From positions 1 through 64,000 of the forward strand of contig NZ_LLYW01000050.1 of NCBI RefSeq assembly GCF_001484195.1: a stretch of DNA of 64,000 nt, written 5' to 3'. The first letter of the stretch is position 1. Each line of letters opens with the position of its first letter. Under the pieces are notes generated by a model. The model searched no databases and was not told where the DNA came from. It saw only the letters and a list, made by a program, of their open reading frames with translations. Below are positions 10,382 through 64,000 of this stretch, piece after piece. Origin of the DNA: Thermococcus celericrescens. Lineage in GTDB: Archaea > Methanobacteriota_B > Thermococci > Thermococcales > Thermococcaceae. Position numbers and translations under genes: made by a program.

Positions 10382-11787
10382 TCAACGCCGTACTCCCTCG
10401 CGAGGAGCATGACTATCTTCGGCCTGCAGAAGCTCCCCTGGCATGTCCCGGTGGTTGCCTTCGTCCTGAACTTCACGGAATCCACGCTTGGCGTTTTAAC
10501 GCCTATGAACTTCATCCTCTCGATGGCTTCAAGCACGTCCCCCTCGCTCACGTTGTTGCACCTGCAGACCACCTTTCCGTAGGAGGGGTTCCTCTTTACG
10601 GCCTCGTTCACTCCCTCGGGACTCATCATGAAGAGGTGGCTTATCTCCTTCCTGTAGGGGCTCCATTTGGACTTCTCGACCAGTTTTATCCCGAGGTCGC
10701 GCCCGATTATCTCGGCAACCTCGTAGGCTATCGCTGGAGCGCTCGTCAGTCCTGGCGAACGGATTCCGGCGACGTTGATGAAGCCCCAGACCTCTTCCTC
10801 CGCTTTGATTATGAAGTCTCCCCCGCTGGGCTCTGGCCTTAATCCGGCAAAGGTTCTGATGACCTTGCTCTTCGGCGGGAGCTGGGGCCAGAGCTTCTTT
10901 GCCCCTTCCCAGACCTGCTCAAGCCCCTCCCGGGTGGTGGCGAGATCCTCTTTCTCCTCGGGCGGCAGATCCTGGGCGTTCGGCCCTATCATCAGATGGC
11001 CGGATATCTCGGTTGTTACTACGATTCCCTTGCTTATCGGGGTTGGGGTCGGGAAGAGGACCCTCCTCGGTCCGGGGATTCCCTCGTCGAAGAGCCAGTA
11101 TTCTCCCTTCCTCGGGTGTATCTCGAAGTAATCTATGCCCGCCATTCTCGCTACCCTGTCGGCGTAGAGGCCCGCGGCGTTGATGACGATATCGGCCTCA
11201 ATGAAGCCGTTGTTAGTTTCAACTCCCTTAACCTCGCCGTTCTCGGCCTTTATGCCGGTGACCTCTGTCTCGAGGTGGGTTTTTACGCCATTAGCTACCG
11301 CGTTCTCGGTTATCGCTATAACGGCTGGAATCGGCCCAATCTGTCCCACTATCGGAACCCACAGGGCGCCTATCGCTTCAGGGGTCAGGTTCGGCTCGAG
11401 GTGGAAGAGCTCTTCCCTGTCCACAATTCTCATCTCTGGGACGCCGTTCTGCCTTCCACGCTCCAGAAGCCTCTCAAGCTCGTCGAAGTCCTCCTCCCTG
11501 GTTGCGACTATCAGGGCCCCGTTCCAGATGTGGGGAATCTCAAGCTCTTTCACCCACTGGTGCCAGAGCCTGTTTCCCTTTATACACAGCTTCGCCCTCG
11601 TCGGATACTTCTCCGGGTCATCGTCGTAACCCCCGTGGATCAAAGCCGTGTTCGCCTTGCTGACGCCCCAGCCAACGTCCGGGGCCTTCTCTATTAGGTG
11701 AACCTCGAGGTTCTCGTACCGGCTCAGGACGCGCGCTATACTGGCCCCACTAATCCCCGCGCCTATTATGGCAACTTTCGTTTTCAT
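10363..11787 (-). CDS. GlpA-like glycerol-3-phosphate dehydrogenase, apparent 3' frameshift
   Basis: A 474-aa flavoprotein that should oxidise glycerol 3-phosphate to dihydroxyacetone phosphate at the membrane or in a soluble complex. An N-terminal FAD site (VAIIGAGISGASIARVL) opens the DAO-type domain, with the GlpA-like LIHGGYDDDP and GIRSPGLTSAPAIAYEV segments. A C-terminal BFD-like [2Fe-2S] domain has the cysteine pattern CRCNN...GTCQGSFCRP, four cysteines in all. The start is the ATG at 11787 behind GGGGTGAAGAGC; the GTG at 11796 lies in that site. The reading frame ends GVERGRLP at 10363, but the natural tail seems to lie in the next frame (see 10301-10381). The catalytic and cluster domains remain intact, so the product may still work. 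Confidence 0.85.
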   Translation of the reverse strand: MKTKVAIIGAGISGASIARVLSRYENLEVHLIEKAPDVGWGVSKANTALIHGGYDDDPEKYPTRAKLCIKGNRLWHQWVKELEIPHIWNGALIVATREEDFDELERLLERGRQNGVPEMRIVDREELFHLEPNLTPEAIGALWVPIVGQIGPIPAVIAITENAVANGVKTHLETEVTGIKAENGEVKGVETNNGFIEADIVINAAGLYADRVARMAGIDYFEIHPRKGEYWLFDEGIPGPRRVLFPTPTPISKGIVVTTEISGHLMIGPNAQDLPPEEKEDLATTREGLEQVWEGAKKLWPQLPPKSKVIRTFAGLRPEPSGGDFIIKAEEEVWGFINVAGIRSPGLTSAPAIAYEVAEIIGRDLGIKLVEKSKWSPYRKEISHLFMMSPEGVNEAVKRNPSYGKVVCRCNNVSEGDVLEAIERMKFIGVKTPSVDSVKFRTKATTGTCQGSFCRPKIVMLLAREYGVERGRLP

Positions 11788-37800: not shown

Positions 37801-38898
37801 TTAGACTCTCCTTTTTAGGAGCAGGAGAAGAGAAAAGAGCATCAAAGCGCAGACTAAGCATATTATCCTTCTTTCGTGGGACCCCTGTAGCAGGTGATCT
37901 GAATCCGAAGGTGGCCACGGCTTTGCATTTAAGAGTTCACTTGTCAAGTCCTCAAACATCCCATCATGGTACTTTAGGAGTCGCCACTGACCCTTTTGCA
38001 CACCTGCAATTAGCCAGAAATCATTAACTCGGGTTATGTAAACTATACGTATACCTGGGTCAGTTATCTTTGTGAAGTTTCTTCCGTCATATGTGAAAAG
38101 TCCTCCACTCGTAGCAAGCATCCAGCATCCATCCCACCTGACAAGATAAGCATCCATCGTGGAAATCTTGTTAATAGTTCCATTGTAGGAATAGAGTCCA
38201 TAATTTGTCGCTAGGAGCACCACCGAGCCATTGGAATCCATGGAATAAACCTTAAAACCCTCTGAAAAATCCAAGAGCTTCTCCAAGCTCCCGTCATAAA
38301 GATAAAGAGAATTTTCGTAAAGATCTCCCCCGTTTCTAAGATAAATCAACCATGAGTCCCTCGATGGGATGTAAGCAACATGGATTGAGTCCCCGGTGAT
38401 GTTGATCCACCTAAACTGCCCTCCGTCGAACATGGTGACGGTTTCATACGTGAGCATGGTGACCGTTCTTGAGACAAAGAGGGCATTGTGCGTTCCGGAC
38501 TTAAACTCCGTAACCATGCACGCAGAGCAGCCTGGGTGGAATACGACTCTAAAAGTCCTTCCATCGAAGAAAGCCAGCCGCTCTAGACCATCAAAAATCC
38601 AGGTACCGTTGAAATATCCAACAACCACAGGATTTAGCTCATCATAATAACTCCATTCATTAGGCTCGTAGTCAATTGCGGTTCTGTTGAGGTCCACCGG
38701 TTTTCGTGGGATGGGAAATTCGTAAAAGGAACTCCCATCATAAAGGGCAGTGTGAAAGCCATCATCTTTATAATAACTCACCATCGCGTGAGTTCCATTT
38801 GAGGTGAGTCCCCAAATTTTAATATTCTCCGCTGTAACAGCTGAGGCATGCAAGGCAAGTAGCAACAAACCGACGATAACTAAGGTTCTTGCGTTCAT
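37801..38898 (-). CDS. exported, C-terminally anchored protein, partner of a DUF4855-like gene
   Basis: A 365-aa protein with a signal peptide (RTLVIVGLLLLALHASAVTA), about 310 external residues and a C-terminal membrane helix (IICLVCALMLFSLLLLL) ending in basic residues. The external part repeats short strand-turn units of the type LYDGSSFYEF, FFDGRTFRVV, MFDGGQFRW, LYDGSLEKLL and TYDGRNFTKI, a spacing that suggests a beta-propeller. It has many sequons. It lies just after a broken DUF4855-like gene in an AT-rich island, and a gene of similar type has the same position at 58809-59897. The start is ATG 38898 after AGAGGGATGCCA. Function is unknown. Confidence 0.7.
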   Translation of the reverse strand: MNARTLVIVGLLLLALHASAVTAENIKIWGLTSNGTHAMVSYYKDDGFHTALYDGSSFYEFPIPRKPVDLNRTAIDYEPNEWSYYDELNPVVVGYFNGTWIFDGLERLAFFDGRTFRVVFHPGCSACMVTEFKSGTHNALFVSRTVTMLTYETVTMFDGGQFRWINITGDSIHVAYIPSRDSWLIYLRNGGDLYENSLYLYDGSLEKLLDFSEGFKVYSMDSNGSVVLLATNYGLYSYNGTINKISTMDAYLVRWDGCWMLATSGGLFTYDGRNFTKITDPGIRIVYITRVNDFWLIAGVQKGQWRLLKYHDGMFEDLTSELLNAKPWPPSDSDHLLQGSHERRIICLVCALMLFSLLLLLKRRV

Positions 38899-38934
38899 TG
38901 GCATCCCTCTGATAACAAAGAGATAGCATAATGC

Positions 38935-39777
38935 CTAACAAGTTGAATTTCCTCCGGACGGACATGAAATTTCATTATAACGTTCCTTCACTTTCAGATA
39001 ATTTTGTATGTCATTGCTAAAGTAATGATAGACATATTTAAAGCCACCAACAGCATTGGATGCACAATAATAGTTTACCGCCCGGTCAGTGCACCTTAAA
39101 TCTTCCTCGAACATGCACTGACACCCGCAATTTTCTCTACTCCCACCAACGTAATCCTCTCTAACGGCATTATCACATTCAAATTCTACTCCCCATCCCC
39201 TATTTTTGCATTCTTGCATAAATATTTTTAGTTGGTTAAAGTTCATACCATTTGGTCTATACGGATCCATTCTCAATTGGCACTCTGAGTCATACTTGTA
39301 TCCTGTGTCATCTCTAACTTGATAGTAATGTGGCTGAGGAGCTATATTAGTGAAGTGAATGTAAGCTTGACACTTATCCATGTAGTTAAAGCTGAGATTT
39401 CCCTCTATAGGTATCCACACGGCATATTTATTTTTTGCTTTGATATCATTAACTATCCTTTTCACATTGTCTCTGCAATATGTGTTATCTTGAGCTTTTG
39501 CATTATACATTGTATAAGCTCCTTCGGGTACTAGATAATAACCTCTAATCTTTGAACCTACTTGATCTTCCAGGTATCGAACCATAGTTTCATTTGTTGA
39601 TATGTCCACTTGCCCTGGGGATTAGGAATCTCTGATATTATCTGAAATCCCGGTTTTTGAGTCCAGAATTCATTAATAATCTGAATCAGTGTATTAATGT
39701 CATCATTATCCCGGTCTGTTTCTGGACCAAGCTATCCGACTCCCAGTATAATAAAAAAGACTTACATTCCATGTCAT
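38935..39777 (-). pseudogene. DUF4855-like gene with two frameshifts
   Basis: The gene starts at ATG 39777 behind GGGAGTGATAAAA and encodes MTWNVSLFYYTGS. It then changes frame near 39735 (LGPETDRDNDDINTLIQ onwards) and again near 39585 (YLEDQVGSKIRGYYLVPEG onwards), and finishes at 38935. Together the pieces make about 280 residues, related to the intact 305-aa protein at 59890-60807: both have GYY/GFYW, xWIPx, PQPHYYQ/CQPNYYQ, Cys-rich and YYF(S/N) segments in the same order. The family name is from memory and only moderately certain. The intact part after 39609 has cysteine-rich motifs (CGCQCMFEED). Confidence 0.65.
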
Positions 39778-58545: not shown

Positions 58546-58589
58546 ATCCCCTTTTTCATACTTTTGTTAAATTTCCAACTTGTTCTTGA

Positions 58590-58770
58590 GGCGGTTAATA
58601 ATGTCCTGTTAAGGAGCGGACCAATCGTTTCTGGAATAATTTTTAGGAGTAAACACTGGAGGAGGGTTCACAGGTTTATCTTCCTGTTCGCCTTCCGGTA
58701 TAATTTTATTAGGGTGCACTCCACACTTGGCGATCCCAAGGCAATATCACCGGATGATTCCAGAAGGTGA
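58590..58770 (+). pseudogene. remnant of a DDE transposase, C-terminal part
   Basis: The encoded ERTNRFWNNF and, after a frame change, RSKHWRRVHRFIFLF and FRYNFIRVHSTLG resemble the C-terminal end of integrase-core transposases (helix with ERxNRxx, then YNFxRxHSxLG). The catalytic aspartates are not present and the pieces need a frameshift, so it is a relic. It marks the left border of the AT-rich island. Confidence 0.5.
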
Positions 58771-58808: not shown

Positions 58809-59897
58809 CTACTTACTTCCCCTGAGAGCTAAAATCATCAAAGATAGCAATACAATAAAAGCCGGCCCGCAAATTCCTTCCTCTCTTTTTGTTTCGGTCA
58901 CGGTTTTAGTATGCTCCTTTGTCTCCGTTACAGTTTTAGTCATTGTTATCGCGACTGTTTTTGTCATGGTGATCGTCACGTTCCTGTAAATGCATTTGGG
59001 CCAATGAGTAAAGAAGTTCTTCTCCACAAAAACCTCTAATTTTCCATTCTCAACAATTCTGAAGATGCGGAAAACTTTCAGGCTCTTTCCATCATAGAAG
59101 AATACGGGGAACGGCTTCAGACTTGATGTGTTCAGGAGTTTGGTTTCGCTTTCCTCTTTTCCGAAGAGAACTACCCTACTGTAATCATGCTGTCCCGGTG
59201 TAATGTTCCAAATGCCTTGATAGACTGCAGGATAGAGGAGAATTCCCTCCTTAAGGAATACACCTTCAAGGTGTTTTACCATGAAGTTGGCGTCAAAATA
59301 GGGTTCCAGTTCTTCAATGGGAATCACATACGTTTGTGAACCGTTGGAGAAGAGCACAGTACCATTTTCTAACACTCCTTCAACGGGTTTAGTTGTTGGG
59401 CTTCTCTGCTCTCTCGTGTAATTCCCTACTCCTAAATAATCAATGCAATTTCTATCAAAGCGCCACACAAGAGAAGGGAATGGCTCTTTCTGTCCAAAAA
59501 AGACCATGGTCCATGCACTATCTTGACGATAGAACAGGGGATGGGATGAAATCTCTGAGGATTTGGAGGAAAAGTCATCCAAGAAAGGATTAACAAAGTA
59601 CAGATTATCCCCATCAAAATAAAAAGGAAAATAGTACCATACGACTGGGCTAAGATAGCAGTGAAACGGTTTTTCTTCGAGAGTGTAGTTCCAGAAGCCC
59701 TCACAAACAGGCCCCAAATGTGCAGGCCACTGGGTTGGAGTATACGTGACAAGTAAGAATGCGTTTTCTCCGTCACTGTAAACTTCAGTATATGCAGAAA
59801 ATCCATCTCCCAATCCGGCCTGATAAACAATGCCAGCTGAAGCAAAGCCCGTCAGAGAAGAGAAGATTAAAAAAACGAGGAAAACACGCTTAAACAT
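58809..59897 (-). CDS. CGP-CTERM surface protein, partner of the DUF4855-like gene
   Basis: A 362-aa exported protein: signal peptide (RVFLVFLIFSSLTGFASA), about 285 external residues rich in aromatic ones, a Thr-rich stalk (TMTKTVAITMTKTVTETK repeats) and a C-terminal CGP-CTERM sorting motif (GICGPAFIVLLSLMILAL-RGSK). The motif, specific to Thermococcaceae, marks proteins for C-terminal processing and anchoring at the surface. Many sequons suggest glycosylation. The start is ATG 59897 after GGGGGAGCGTT; it overlaps the previous gene by 8 nt. An analogous exported gene follows the broken DUF4855-like gene at 38935. Confidence 0.75.
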   Translation of the reverse strand: MFKRVFLVFLIFSSLTGFASAGIVYQAGLGDGFSAYTEVYSDGENAFLLVTYTPTQWPAHLGPVCEGFWNYTLEEKPFHCYLSPVVWYYFPFYFDGDNLYFVNPFLDDFSSKSSEISSHPLFYRQDSAWTMVFFGQKEPFPSLVWRFDRNCIDYLGVGNYTREQRSPTTKPVEGVLENGTVLFSNGSQTYVIPIEELEPYFDANFMVKHLEGVFLKEGILLYPAVYQGIWNITPGQHDYSRVVLFGKEESETKLLNTSSLKPFPVFFYDGKSLKVFRIFRIVENGKLEVFVEKNFFTHWPKCIYRNVTITMTKTVAITMTKTVTETKEHTKTVTETKREEGICGPAFIVLLSLMILALRGSK

Positions 59898-60807
59898 AAC
59901 GCTCCCCCAAGTTGTTCTGGCAGTACTCTTCCATTTCATCAATAACTCTTAAGTCAGTGCTGAAGTAGTAAGCCCTATGATAAAACTTGCCGCCCAAAAC
60001 ATCTTCTTGTGCGTTAATATAATGAGAAGCATACTCTTTACAGCACTCTCCTACCCCACACCTACAGTTTTCTGAGATGCCCAAAATTGCCTTATCCACC
60101 TCTATCTCCATATAAACTTGCCCCTCATAGATCCAGTCCACTCTTCTTTTAAGTTCTTCGTAAGAGTAAGGATTTCCATCACGCATAAGAGAATTCTGAT
60201 AATAGTTTGGTTGGCAGAAAACATAGTTGAAGTACCCACGATATCCCTTGATGTCTGTATAGTTGTCTAGATCATCTATGGTTCTGTCTCTAAACGCTGG
60301 TATCCAAATAAGCCTTAAACTGTGATTCACTCGTACATAGTTAGAAAGATCCTCAATGAACTCTTTGTCCACTGTCTTTCCAGAATCATATCCATGTGTA
60401 AATTGGCCTGCAGCTTCTAAGCTCCAGTAGAATCCCCTTCTGTTTGAGTCTGCAACGCTTAAAACCCCATCAATCCAACCATGCCAGTAAGAATCATTAA
60501 ATTGTCCTTGAGGATCGCCTCTTGGAACACTCGCTGAATTGAGTTTGTAGAAGGGAATTGTGACATAGTACTGAATTCTCTGAAGTTTAAAAGTGAGCCA
60601 CATGGCAAGTTCTTGACCATCCTTATACCCGTTGTCATAACCGGGACCACTGTAGTTTGATGCCCCACCCTCACCATCCAAAGCTATCAAATAATCGAAA
60701 CCTCTGTTTTTAAAGTCCTGCACTGTTGCTTCTCTACTTCCAACCTTCATTCTTGACTCGTAATTCGAGCCATCCCACTTAAACCACCACAAGGCAAAAG
60801 TCGACAT
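59890..60807 (-). CDS. DUF4855-like protein, 305 aa
   Basis: A soluble protein with no signal peptide. It shows a TIM-barrel-like series of strands (FDYLIALDGEGG; YYVTIPFYKL; GFYWSLEAAGQF; LRLIWIPAFRD; FNYVFCQPNYYQ; GQVYMEIEVDKAI) ending in a Cys-rich stretch (ENCRCGVGECC) and RAYYFSTDLRVIDEM. Acidic residues on these strands could form a glycoside hydrolase-type site, but this is inference. The family name rests on memory. The start is ATG 60807 (or 60810), behind GGAGGTGGT. It overlaps the CGP-CTERM gene, and its paralogue at 38935 is broken. Confidence 0.7.
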   Translation of the reverse strand: MSTFALWWFKWDGSNYESRMKVGSREATVQDFKNRGFDYLIALDGEGGASNYSGPGYDNGYKDGQELAMWLTFKLQRIQYYVTIPFYKLNSASVPRGDPQGQFNDSYWHGWIDGVLSVADSNRRGFYWSLEAAGQFTHGYDSGKTVDKEFIEDLSNYVRVNHSLRLIWIPAFRDRTIDDLDNYTDIKGYRGYFNYVFCQPNYYQNSLMRDGNPYSYEELKRRVDWIYEGQVYMEIEVDKAILGISENCRCGVGECCKEYASHYINAQEDVLGGKFYHRAYYFSTDLRVIDEMEEYCQNNLGERYV

Positions 60808-60930
60808 CATACCACCTCCAAGATTTCTTCGCAATACTTTATAGTTAGTGTGTTGAATTATGTCTGAAAATTTTTTAAGGTTTGCCCTAGCTCAGTAGAT
60901 ACTGTCAGGATACCCCTAGTTCCAGACCAC

Positions 60931-61430
60931 TTATGAAGTTGTGTAATCCACCGGTTCACAGTCAGGATTGTCCCCAAAATCCCAATACTCAAAACCCTCC
61001 AAACTAACACTCCTGCTCGGCCTCAAAAGAAACTCAAAAAACTTCGAAAACAAAGTCTCAGTCCTTCTCCGGAAACCAGACAAGTACTCGTAAAACTTCC
61101 CCTCCCCCAAATTATTAACCTGATCCTCCCGCTTCACCAGCGTGTAAGCAACACCAAACGAATGGGTTTCGAGTCCAGTATCCTAACGTATTCCTTAGCG
61201 TGTTTTCTGAATAATTCCCTTGTGCCAGCAGCAGGAATTTTTCGTACCGGTTCAAGCGTTCTGTTAGTTTGTTGTACCTGATTTTGGGAACAGTTTCATT
61301 TCTTCAACTAACACCCTGTAAGCATGCTTGTAAACTCCTCCGAAGTATAAGTGTGCCAGTACTGCGAATGTTATCAGGTCGTAAAGCTGATTACTTCACT
61401 TCTCTGCGGGTGTTTTTCAGGTAGTGCCCT
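60931..61430 (-). pseudogene. decayed IS982-like transposase
   Basis: Fragments in several frames make sense only together: LYDLITFAVLAHLYFGGVYK, HAYRVLVEEMKLFPK, RYNKLTERLNRYEKFLL, a VRILDSKP piece holding a candidate catalytic aspartate, and KREDQVNNLGEGKFYEYLSG at the 3' end. This order is that of IS982-type transposases. Multiple stops and frameshifts show that it is dead. It borders the AT-rich island on the right. The following 61430-61656 has no gene other than the next promoter. Confidence 0.6.
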
Positions 61431-61656
61431 CTGATCATCAGGTAAATCCTCGGATTTTATGATCAAAACCTCCTACTGGAAGTTCATAGGTCAATCAGCC
61501 AAAAACTCAAGTGCCTATAGCCCTAAACGATTTGATGGGAACTAAATTTCCACGGGGGAACACCGCCTACTTCAACGGAGTGGGGCTAATTAACTTCTCC
61601 GAGAGTTTCACGGAAAAGTTATAAATCCCCCCATCCAGCCCATACCGGGGGAGCCA

Positions 61657-62603: not shown

Positions 62604-64000
62604 TTTTCAATTCTCCTAGAGTCTTATTATCTGGGGGGACGTCCCGTCCCCCACACCCCCTCAAGATCCACCCAACTCTAGGAAGTCTTACTGCGACCCC
62701 GTTTCAATTCTCCTAGAGTCTTATTGCAACTCAGGGTCAGTTGCAGTTCCTTAGCGAGTTCATCTTTCTTTCAATTCTCCTAGAGTCTTATTGCAACACC
62801 TGGGCGAATTTATCTTTTACGTCCCAAAAGTCGGTGCTTTCAATTCTCCTAGAGTCTTATTGCAACGTACTTTGCCCACCAAGGCTCTTCTTGCATGGTC
62901 TCTTCTTTCAATTCTCCTAGAGTCTTATTGCAACTTTTGAGAATAGAGGGGTATATAGGTTCATTTAAAGACTTTCAATTCTCCTAGAGTCTTATTGCAA
63001 CCATAGCCGGGTGGTGTAGTTGGCCAAGCATGCCGGTCTTGTTTCAATTCTCCTAGAGTCTTATTGCAACCTTAATTTCCACCCTCCAACAAGAGCTGGC
63101 TAAAGTCAGGTTTCAATTCTCCTAGAGTCTTATTGCAACCCGTTATGCCGTAGATTACGTGCCGGACGAGATCTACGTTTCAATTCTCCTAGAGTCTTAT
63201 TGCAACTATATGAGATAGTCCCCGACGAAGAAGTGATGCTTAGTTTCAATTCTCCTAGAGTCTTATTGCAACGATCAAAGATGACCGCAATGAAGAGCTT
63301 CACCGGAAGGTTTCAATTCTCCTAGAGTCTTATTGCAACATGATCAGGGAGATAGACAGAAAAGAGGTCGAGGAGTCTTTCAATTCTCCTAGAGTCTTAT
63401 TGCAACCCGCTCGCCGGTCCCCTTCGCGGTGAGCTACGACCGCTTTCAATTCTCCTAGAGTCTTATTGCAACGAGTTCGAGGATGACTATCCGCGTGAAC
63501 TCGGAACAGCTTTCAATTCTCCTAGAGTCTTATTGCAACCCGGCTGATAATCTGAATATCGTTTTTGCCGAATTTCCTTTCAATTCTCCTAGAGTCTTAT
63601 TGCAACCGGCGGTCGTCACCACACCCACCATTACTGCCCCGGCTTTCAATTCTCCTAGAGTCTTATTGCAACGTGATGGGGATGGCGAGGGTTGTTGGCA
63701 CCATAATTGCTTTCAATTCTCCTAGAGTCTTATTGCAACGGACGTCGGCAACGATGAGGACGTTGAGACCATCAGGCTTTCAATTCTCCTAGAGTCTTAT
63801 TGCAACCTGTTTCATGTCCTGATAGGGGTTCGATAGAAGCTCCCTTTCAATTCTCCTAGAGTCTTATTGCAACGGGTTTCAGCCCGCTCCAGTTCCCCGA
63901 CTTCAGCCTCTTTCAATTCTCCTAGAGTCTTATTGCAACATCAAAAGCCCTCATTCCTTCGCCCCCAGGGCCTTGCTTTCAATTCTCCTAGAGTCTTATT
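62604..64000 (-). CRISPR. CRISPR array, 20 regular repeats and two degenerate ones, runs off the right edge
   Basis: Regular 30-nt repeats begin at 62701, 62768, 62837, 62905, 62972, 63041, 63110, 63177, 63243, 63310, 63377, 63443, 63510, 63577, 63643, 63710, 63777, 63844, 63910 and 63976 (the last is cut). The plus strand reads TTTCAATTCTCC and then TAGAGTCTTATTGCAAC, preceded by C or G. Nineteen spacers are 36-39 nt. In Thermococcales the transcript repeat starts GTTGCAATAAGACTC, so transcription is on the minus strand and the leader lies beyond 64000. The left end is the old, trailer end, with a repeat lacking its 5' bases (62604-62628) and a decayed one at about 62668-62697. No cas genes or leader are in the window. 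Confidence 0.97.

Follow-up and report, generated by a model that had tools for sequence, protein, structure and literature searches.

Computational analysis of a 64,000-nucleotide stretch of the Thermococcus celericrescens genome (assembly GCF_001484195.1, contig NZ_LLYW01000050.1, positions 1 to 64,000 of the forward strand; hereafter the window) and of related loci in other archaea showed a paired, hypervariable gene module occupying fixed chromosomal sites. It consists of a gene for a cytosolic-looking predicted TIM-barrel protein (A), directly followed by a gene for an exported, anchored protein (B). A previous sequence-only reading had reported two such gene pairs at 58809-60807 and 37801-39777, and both exist on the minus strand with the following features:

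58809-59897, minus strand: gene B; signal peptide, predicted all-beta ectodomain, Thr/Lys-rich stalk and C-terminal anchor; 362 aa including the initiator
58821-58874, minus strand: CGP-CTERM anchor region of gene B (profile match)
59890-59897, minus strand: overlap of A stop and B start, ATGTTTAA; an 8-nt overlap is found in 26 of 84 pairs
59890-60807, minus strand: gene A; DUF4855-type predicted TIM barrel, 305 aa, without signal peptide; alternative ATG at 60810
60100-60102, minus strand: codon for E236 of A, strand 7 end; present in 84 of 84 homologues
60415-60417, minus strand: codon for E131 of A, strand 4 end; present in 83 of 84 homologues
60813-60819, minus strand: Shine-Dalgarno sequence GGAGGTG of gene A, read from the sequence
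37801-38904, minus strand: second partner B', intact; signal peptide and plain C-terminal helix
38935-39777, minus strand: second A, broken; three frame pieces, N-terminal part absent; member of an old A group other than that of gene A

The length of gene A is counted from the second ATG (60807), and the 8-nt overlap results from the ATG of B (59897-59895) lying upstream of the A stop codon (59892-59890). The first gene of the second pair is not intact, a point missed by the sequence-only reading: tblastn recovered it in three frame pieces with approximately residues 15-50 absent, and it is a pseudogene or a bearer of draft errors. The AT-rich islands described for both copies were recovered, the GC content of 1-kb windows being 0.35-0.44 at the module regions versus about 0.55-0.58 elsewhere. 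Degenerate stretches resembling transposase remnants by eye flank the window module (60931-61580 and 58564-58770), an assignment for which profile, plasmid, and own-genome searches gave no confirmation. A CRISPR array lies at 63038-64000 and extends out of the window along this contig, up to about position 11680 of locus L017. Its repeat, STTTCAATTCTCCTAGAGTCTTATTGCAAC (S being G in the first copies and C in later ones), recurs with a spacing of about 67 bp, with 15 copies within the window and at least 20 more past it.

Extension of the analysis to the whole host assembly (2.34 Mb, 73 contigs) revealed a multicopy state, which had escaped the sequence-only reading together with the fixed-site hypervariability, the mosaicism, and the occurrence in Methanococcales. 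A protein search with A gave eleven matches, and neighbourhood reading together with a search using the second copy resolved about eight modules: two on the contig of the window (C50), one each on C13, C29, C4, and C27, and two with their halves at contig ends (C11 and C30; C15 and C41). Each host A with its 3' end present directly precedes a gene for a protein with both signal peptide and C-terminal anchor. The closest paralogue of the window A (69%) is located on C13, its partner sharing 34% identity with the window B.

A profile built from five A proteins gave hits in 52 of the 94 Thermococcales genomes, at most ten per genome, and 78 loci were fetched from this order for neighbourhood analysis. 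A same-strand downstream ORF was present for 84 of the 85 full-length A genes, the sole exception (L066) sitting at a contig end, and 82 of these ORFs combine a hydrophobic N-terminus with a C-terminal helix. Among the other genes of the same loci, 21 of 439 precede an ORF of this kind. This rules out chance adjacency (82/85 versus 21/439) and supports the recurrent pairing, from which a joint function had been suggested. The start of B overlaps the end of A in 57 of 84 pairs (most commonly by 8 nt, 26 pairs; 16 nt, 11 pairs; 17 nt, 7 pairs), and by inspection most modules carry a TATA-like element and their own ribosome-binding site. The pattern does not represent one recent copy counted repeatedly, since the full-length A genes fall into 74 clusters at an identity of 90% and into 17 at 50%.

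A gene A lacking its B was not found wherever the sequence continues past A, in opposition to a normally solitary first gene. Two further sites (L170-L175), by contrast, carry B-type proteins of about 460-500 aa in the absence of A, and a frameshifted B alone remains at one module site of genome G014 (L169). As orphan B was found and orphan A was not, A is tied to B, whereas B can survive the loss of A. Broken A genes mostly precede an intact B, and thus B is not strictly dependent on its own A. Four genomes share one common site hosting an orphan B-type gene for about 485-505 aa (L170, L172, L173, L174); the 562-aa gene upstream of it resembles, by eye, a methylmalonyl-CoA mutase subunit. Three A genes (L180, L181, L183) are internally deleted with their start and the 3' end adjoining B kept, as if leader and coupling parts were preserved.

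Beyond Thermococcales, 9 of the 36 Methanococcales genomes carry the module, as does G109, a genome from a different family of the same class. A B-like ORF follows A at every locus read there, with A often being broken and the called B-like ORF of two loci (L164, L166) showing no clear signal peptide. Phylogenetically, the Methanococcales A proteins nest in two separate Thermococcales groups (support 0.94-1.0), and the two A copies of the window belong to different groups. In three Methanococcales loci (L160, L161, L162) a conserved gene of ~260 aa lies directly upstream of A; in L164 it is found just downstream of B. One module is located on a Thermococcus peptonophilus plasmid. Its B gene (NZ_CP014751.1 26735-27331; L189:5106-5702) is seemingly annotated from an internal start, losing the signal peptide, and its start according to the module scan lies at the stop codon of A. 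Mobile-element cargo or a viral origin was rejected on the basis of this single plasmid copy, the location of most loci at fixed sites, and the lack of relatives in phage records, IMG/VR contigs, PHROGs, and PADLOC (the last two at E 0.01).

In terms of chromosomal position, 60 of 91 loci occupy thirteen recurring sites, defined by an identity of at least 70% in both flanks. At the five largest sites, the flanking genes reach a median identity of 73-86%, in comparison to A medians of 33-58% and different B types. A is mosaic: 67 pairs pass the likelihood-ratio cut for an identity jump, with breakpoints clustering at codons 171-176 and 20-48. The DNA of two split A genes of the host is 100% identical over a tract reaching from 50 bp upstream to about codon 172; the 50 bp preceding this tract are 94% identical, and past about codon 172 the identity drops abruptly to 30-50%. 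Similarities of A and B covary overall (Spearman 0.395; permutation maximum 0.112). A pairs alike only in the C-half showed a median B similarity of 0.32, compared with 0.05 where the likeness is confined to the N-half (p 0.0016, with non-independent pairs), while the partial correlations differ little (0.20 versus 0.14). Judging from these comparisons, the 3' half of A tends to travel with B.

The assignment of the first gene as DUF4855-like was confirmed by a Pfam match above the curated gathering cut-off (PF16147; 31 versus 27 bits), spanning profile positions 163-258 of 313, and the host copies on C15, C29, C41, and C4 also exceed it. An AlphaFold2 model based on 16 sequences (pLDDT 95.2, pTM 0.93) depicts eight strands in TIM-barrel order. 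E131 is placed just after strand 4 and E236 at the end of strand 7, and D238 is present in 83 of the 84 homologues; Q199, W168, and Y202 are invariant, and Y203, W111, and G125 vary little or not at all across this set. Glutamates at the ends of strands 4 and 7 constitute the arrangement of clan GH-A. A Foldseek comparison of the model with the PDB returned mostly GH1, GH5, and GH18 enzymes as top matches (E about 1e-4, TM about 0.4-0.5). The previously proposed check for a glycosidase fold with catalytic carboxylates was consequently positive on the fold level, whereas no glycosidase sequence family was matched: Pfam gave DUF4855 only, NCBIfam and the PDB sequences gave no family, and the PDB sequences held no solved-structure relative on sequence level. 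A is putatively an active glycosidase. Purifying selection on A is evident from dN/dS values of 0.06-0.26 in 19 of 20 close pairs; the remaining pair (0.52) differs by very few changes. The same applies to B, with 0.14-0.43 in 18 measurable pairs.

The window B carries an N-terminal signal stretch and a CGP-CTERM motif (TIGR04288) above cut-off (22 versus 21 bits), and B' gave no such match, in agreement with the described contrast between a CGP-CTERM partner and a plain-helix partner. This motif is found on many other B proteins as well, and about half of all B end in a plain helix. Apart from CGP-CTERM, no family exceeded its cut-off in the window B, and Pfam gave no name for any of the B proteins scanned. 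The B proteins are highly diverse, forming one large cluster of 63 and several small ones at E 1e-6. The model of the window B (pLDDT 68.5) shows an all-beta fold, a disordered stalk rich in Thr and Lys, and an anchor helix. Its Foldseek list consists mostly of beta-propellers, but the TM values do not exceed about 0.2 and no match reaches an E below 1e-3; a blade-type hairpin motif occurs 201 times versus 50 expected in the B proteins and at expectation in A. Owing to the propeller-dominated list and the motif excess, B is probably propeller-like. The two partners in the window had been described as alike in layout only. This is right insofar as no sequence similarity was found between the window B and B', yet blade-like hairpin motifs are present in both.

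In respect to the site of action of A, the lack of a signal peptide described for the window holds throughout: no full-length A has a hydrophobic N-terminus, the highest 15-residue N-terminal mean hydropathy being 1.45, and a hidden signal peptide was thereby ruled out. A lipoprotein ORF upstream of A in G109, considered as a source of its signal, is a separate protein. N-glycosylation sequons were counted 986 times in B ectodomains versus 256 expected (3.85x) and 195 times in A versus 168 expected (1.16x), with controls at 258 versus 238 (1.09x; cytosolic-like) and 346 versus 123 (2.81x; secreted). The reversed motif, counted 230 times in B, showed no comparable excess. Because sequons are enriched in B ectodomains and not in A, A is probably cytosolic, whereas the earlier reading had tentatively placed the joint function on a surface glycan. 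Counting against an intracellular A, the protein is Cys-rich (1.9% versus 0.6%), aromatic-rich, and less charged than the cytosolic-like controls, its aromatic and charge composition being intermediate between both control sets. Aromatic richness, however, is common among sugar-binding enzymes.

Constant pairing, gene overlap, and covariation indicate that A and B form a functional unit. Our tentative reading, to which we assign somewhat less than an even chance, is that a variable surface glycoprotein and a cytosolic glycan enzyme form a module recombining at fixed sites, the enzyme processing the glycan of its own B. Both genes would be co-translated. B would be a variable, N-glycosylated, surface-anchored, and probably propeller-like protein, recognizing or presenting something at the cell surface. 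A would be a dedicated enzyme with an active site of the retaining-glycosidase type, and its substrate on the cytosolic side would most likely be a lipid-linked or free oligosaccharide. Enzyme specificity, residing in the 3' half of A, and the surface protein may be exchanged jointly as a cassette. We infer enzymatic activity and the cytosolic location of A as well as glycosylation and surface recognition by B; a glycan would best join the two proteins, since a conserved catalytic-type pocket and a variable glycoprotein are probably separated by the membrane. The weakest step, that the substrate of A is the glycan of B, is doubtful in itself. Several observations count against this reading: the model of A resembles glycosidases on the fold level only, broken A genes often leave B intact, the composition of A is intermediate, neither a glycosyltransferase nor a transporter is part of the module, and the link between the C-half and B may, given the similar partial correlations, be mere physical linkage.

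A role in nutrition, with B binding oligosaccharides at the surface, general transporters importing them, and cytosolic A hydrolysing them, is unlikely. It would suit a TIM barrel with glycosidase-type carboxylates and without sequon enrichment, and some CGP-CTERM proteins of T. kodakarensis have been reported to be similar to substrate-binding proteins (PMC4870337). However, the module comes without a transporter, strongly divergent alleles at fixed sites are unusual for catabolic genes, and the number of matches, reaching about ten in a genome with many of them broken, does not fit this role either. Less probable still is an export of A without signal peptide, followed by docking on B as a surface-held enzyme. 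The Cys-rich, aromatic-rich, and less charged composition of A and its constant linkage to a B are compatible with such a route, but A shows neither sequon enrichment nor a hydrophobic N-terminus, and a conserved exporter gene is absent from the module.

The mosaic genes, hypervariable fixed sites, and patchy distribution could also reflect a conflict system of the polymorphic-toxin or self-recognition type, in which B acts on or recognizes neighbours and A protects or matures B; VARTIG operons of the same order vary in the same style (PMC8416519). We consider this very unlikely, as no defence or phage family (PADLOC, PHROGs) was matched, no toxin domain was found, and orphans were found for B rather than for A, for which they are expected if it is an immunity gene. 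Highly improbable, finally, is that B alone matters and A, with an unrelated function, is kept mainly as a coupling leader inside which B translation starts: the frequent overlap and two internally deleted A genes with both ends kept and the B frame intact (L181, L183) would agree with this, but in 16 of the 18 pairs that can be compared purifying selection acts more strongly on A than on B, and A retains a near-invariant catalytic-type pocket.

The A-B pair was not found described in the open papers searched, in which DUF4855 is hardly mentioned. A plasmid homologue is annotated as DUF4855 domain-containing protein; the archaeal A matches the profile only in part, lacks a signal peptide, and invariably comes with a B. 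With clan GH-A (GH1, GH5) and GH18 it shares the TIM barrel and the Glu at the end of strand 4, and with clan GH-A also the Glu at the end of strand 7, but its structural matches stay at the TM level given above, leaving its activity a predicted one. Unlike other CGP-CTERM sorted proteins, B frequently carries a plain helix instead of the motif, and its ectodomain falls into no named family.

VARTIG comprises patchy, hypervariable Thermococcales operons with a 5' gene recombining in its 3' part and downstream membrane proteins, the first gene encoding a large Ig-domain surface protein; it is reportedly confined to Thermococcales, with recombination taking place between genomes rather than inside one (PMC8416519). 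Both systems have a recombining first gene, with the breakpoint cluster at codons 171-176 in the case of A. In contrast, the first gene of our module encodes a cytosolic-looking TIM barrel of 305 aa, no Ig or CARDB domain was found in the A or B proteins scanned, the module also occurs in Methanococcales, and an identical tract is shared between two loci of one genome. The main text on VARTIG does not mention TIM barrels, DUFs, CGP, or propellers (PMC8416519). The A-B module is therefore distinct from VARTIG, as the first genes differ and VARTIG is reported as restricted to Thermococcales and recombining between genomes; it may nevertheless work like VARTIG.

Little is understood about how archaea vary their surfaces and tell self from non-self, and VARTIG was the only dedicated hypervariable Thermococcales module we found in the open literature searched. 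The A-B module adds a second, more compact hypervariable module common to Thermococcales and Methanococcales. It might, although the chances are rather low, represent an undescribed class of archaeal surface variation, in which an intracellular glycan enzyme and the glycoprotein it serves are swapped as one cassette at fixed sites. With a well-modelled enzyme, two candidate catalytic residues, a breakpoint cluster, and fixed sites, both function and recombination are directly testable, and the uncharacterised domain DUF4855 gains a genomic context together with a likely, predicted activity class.
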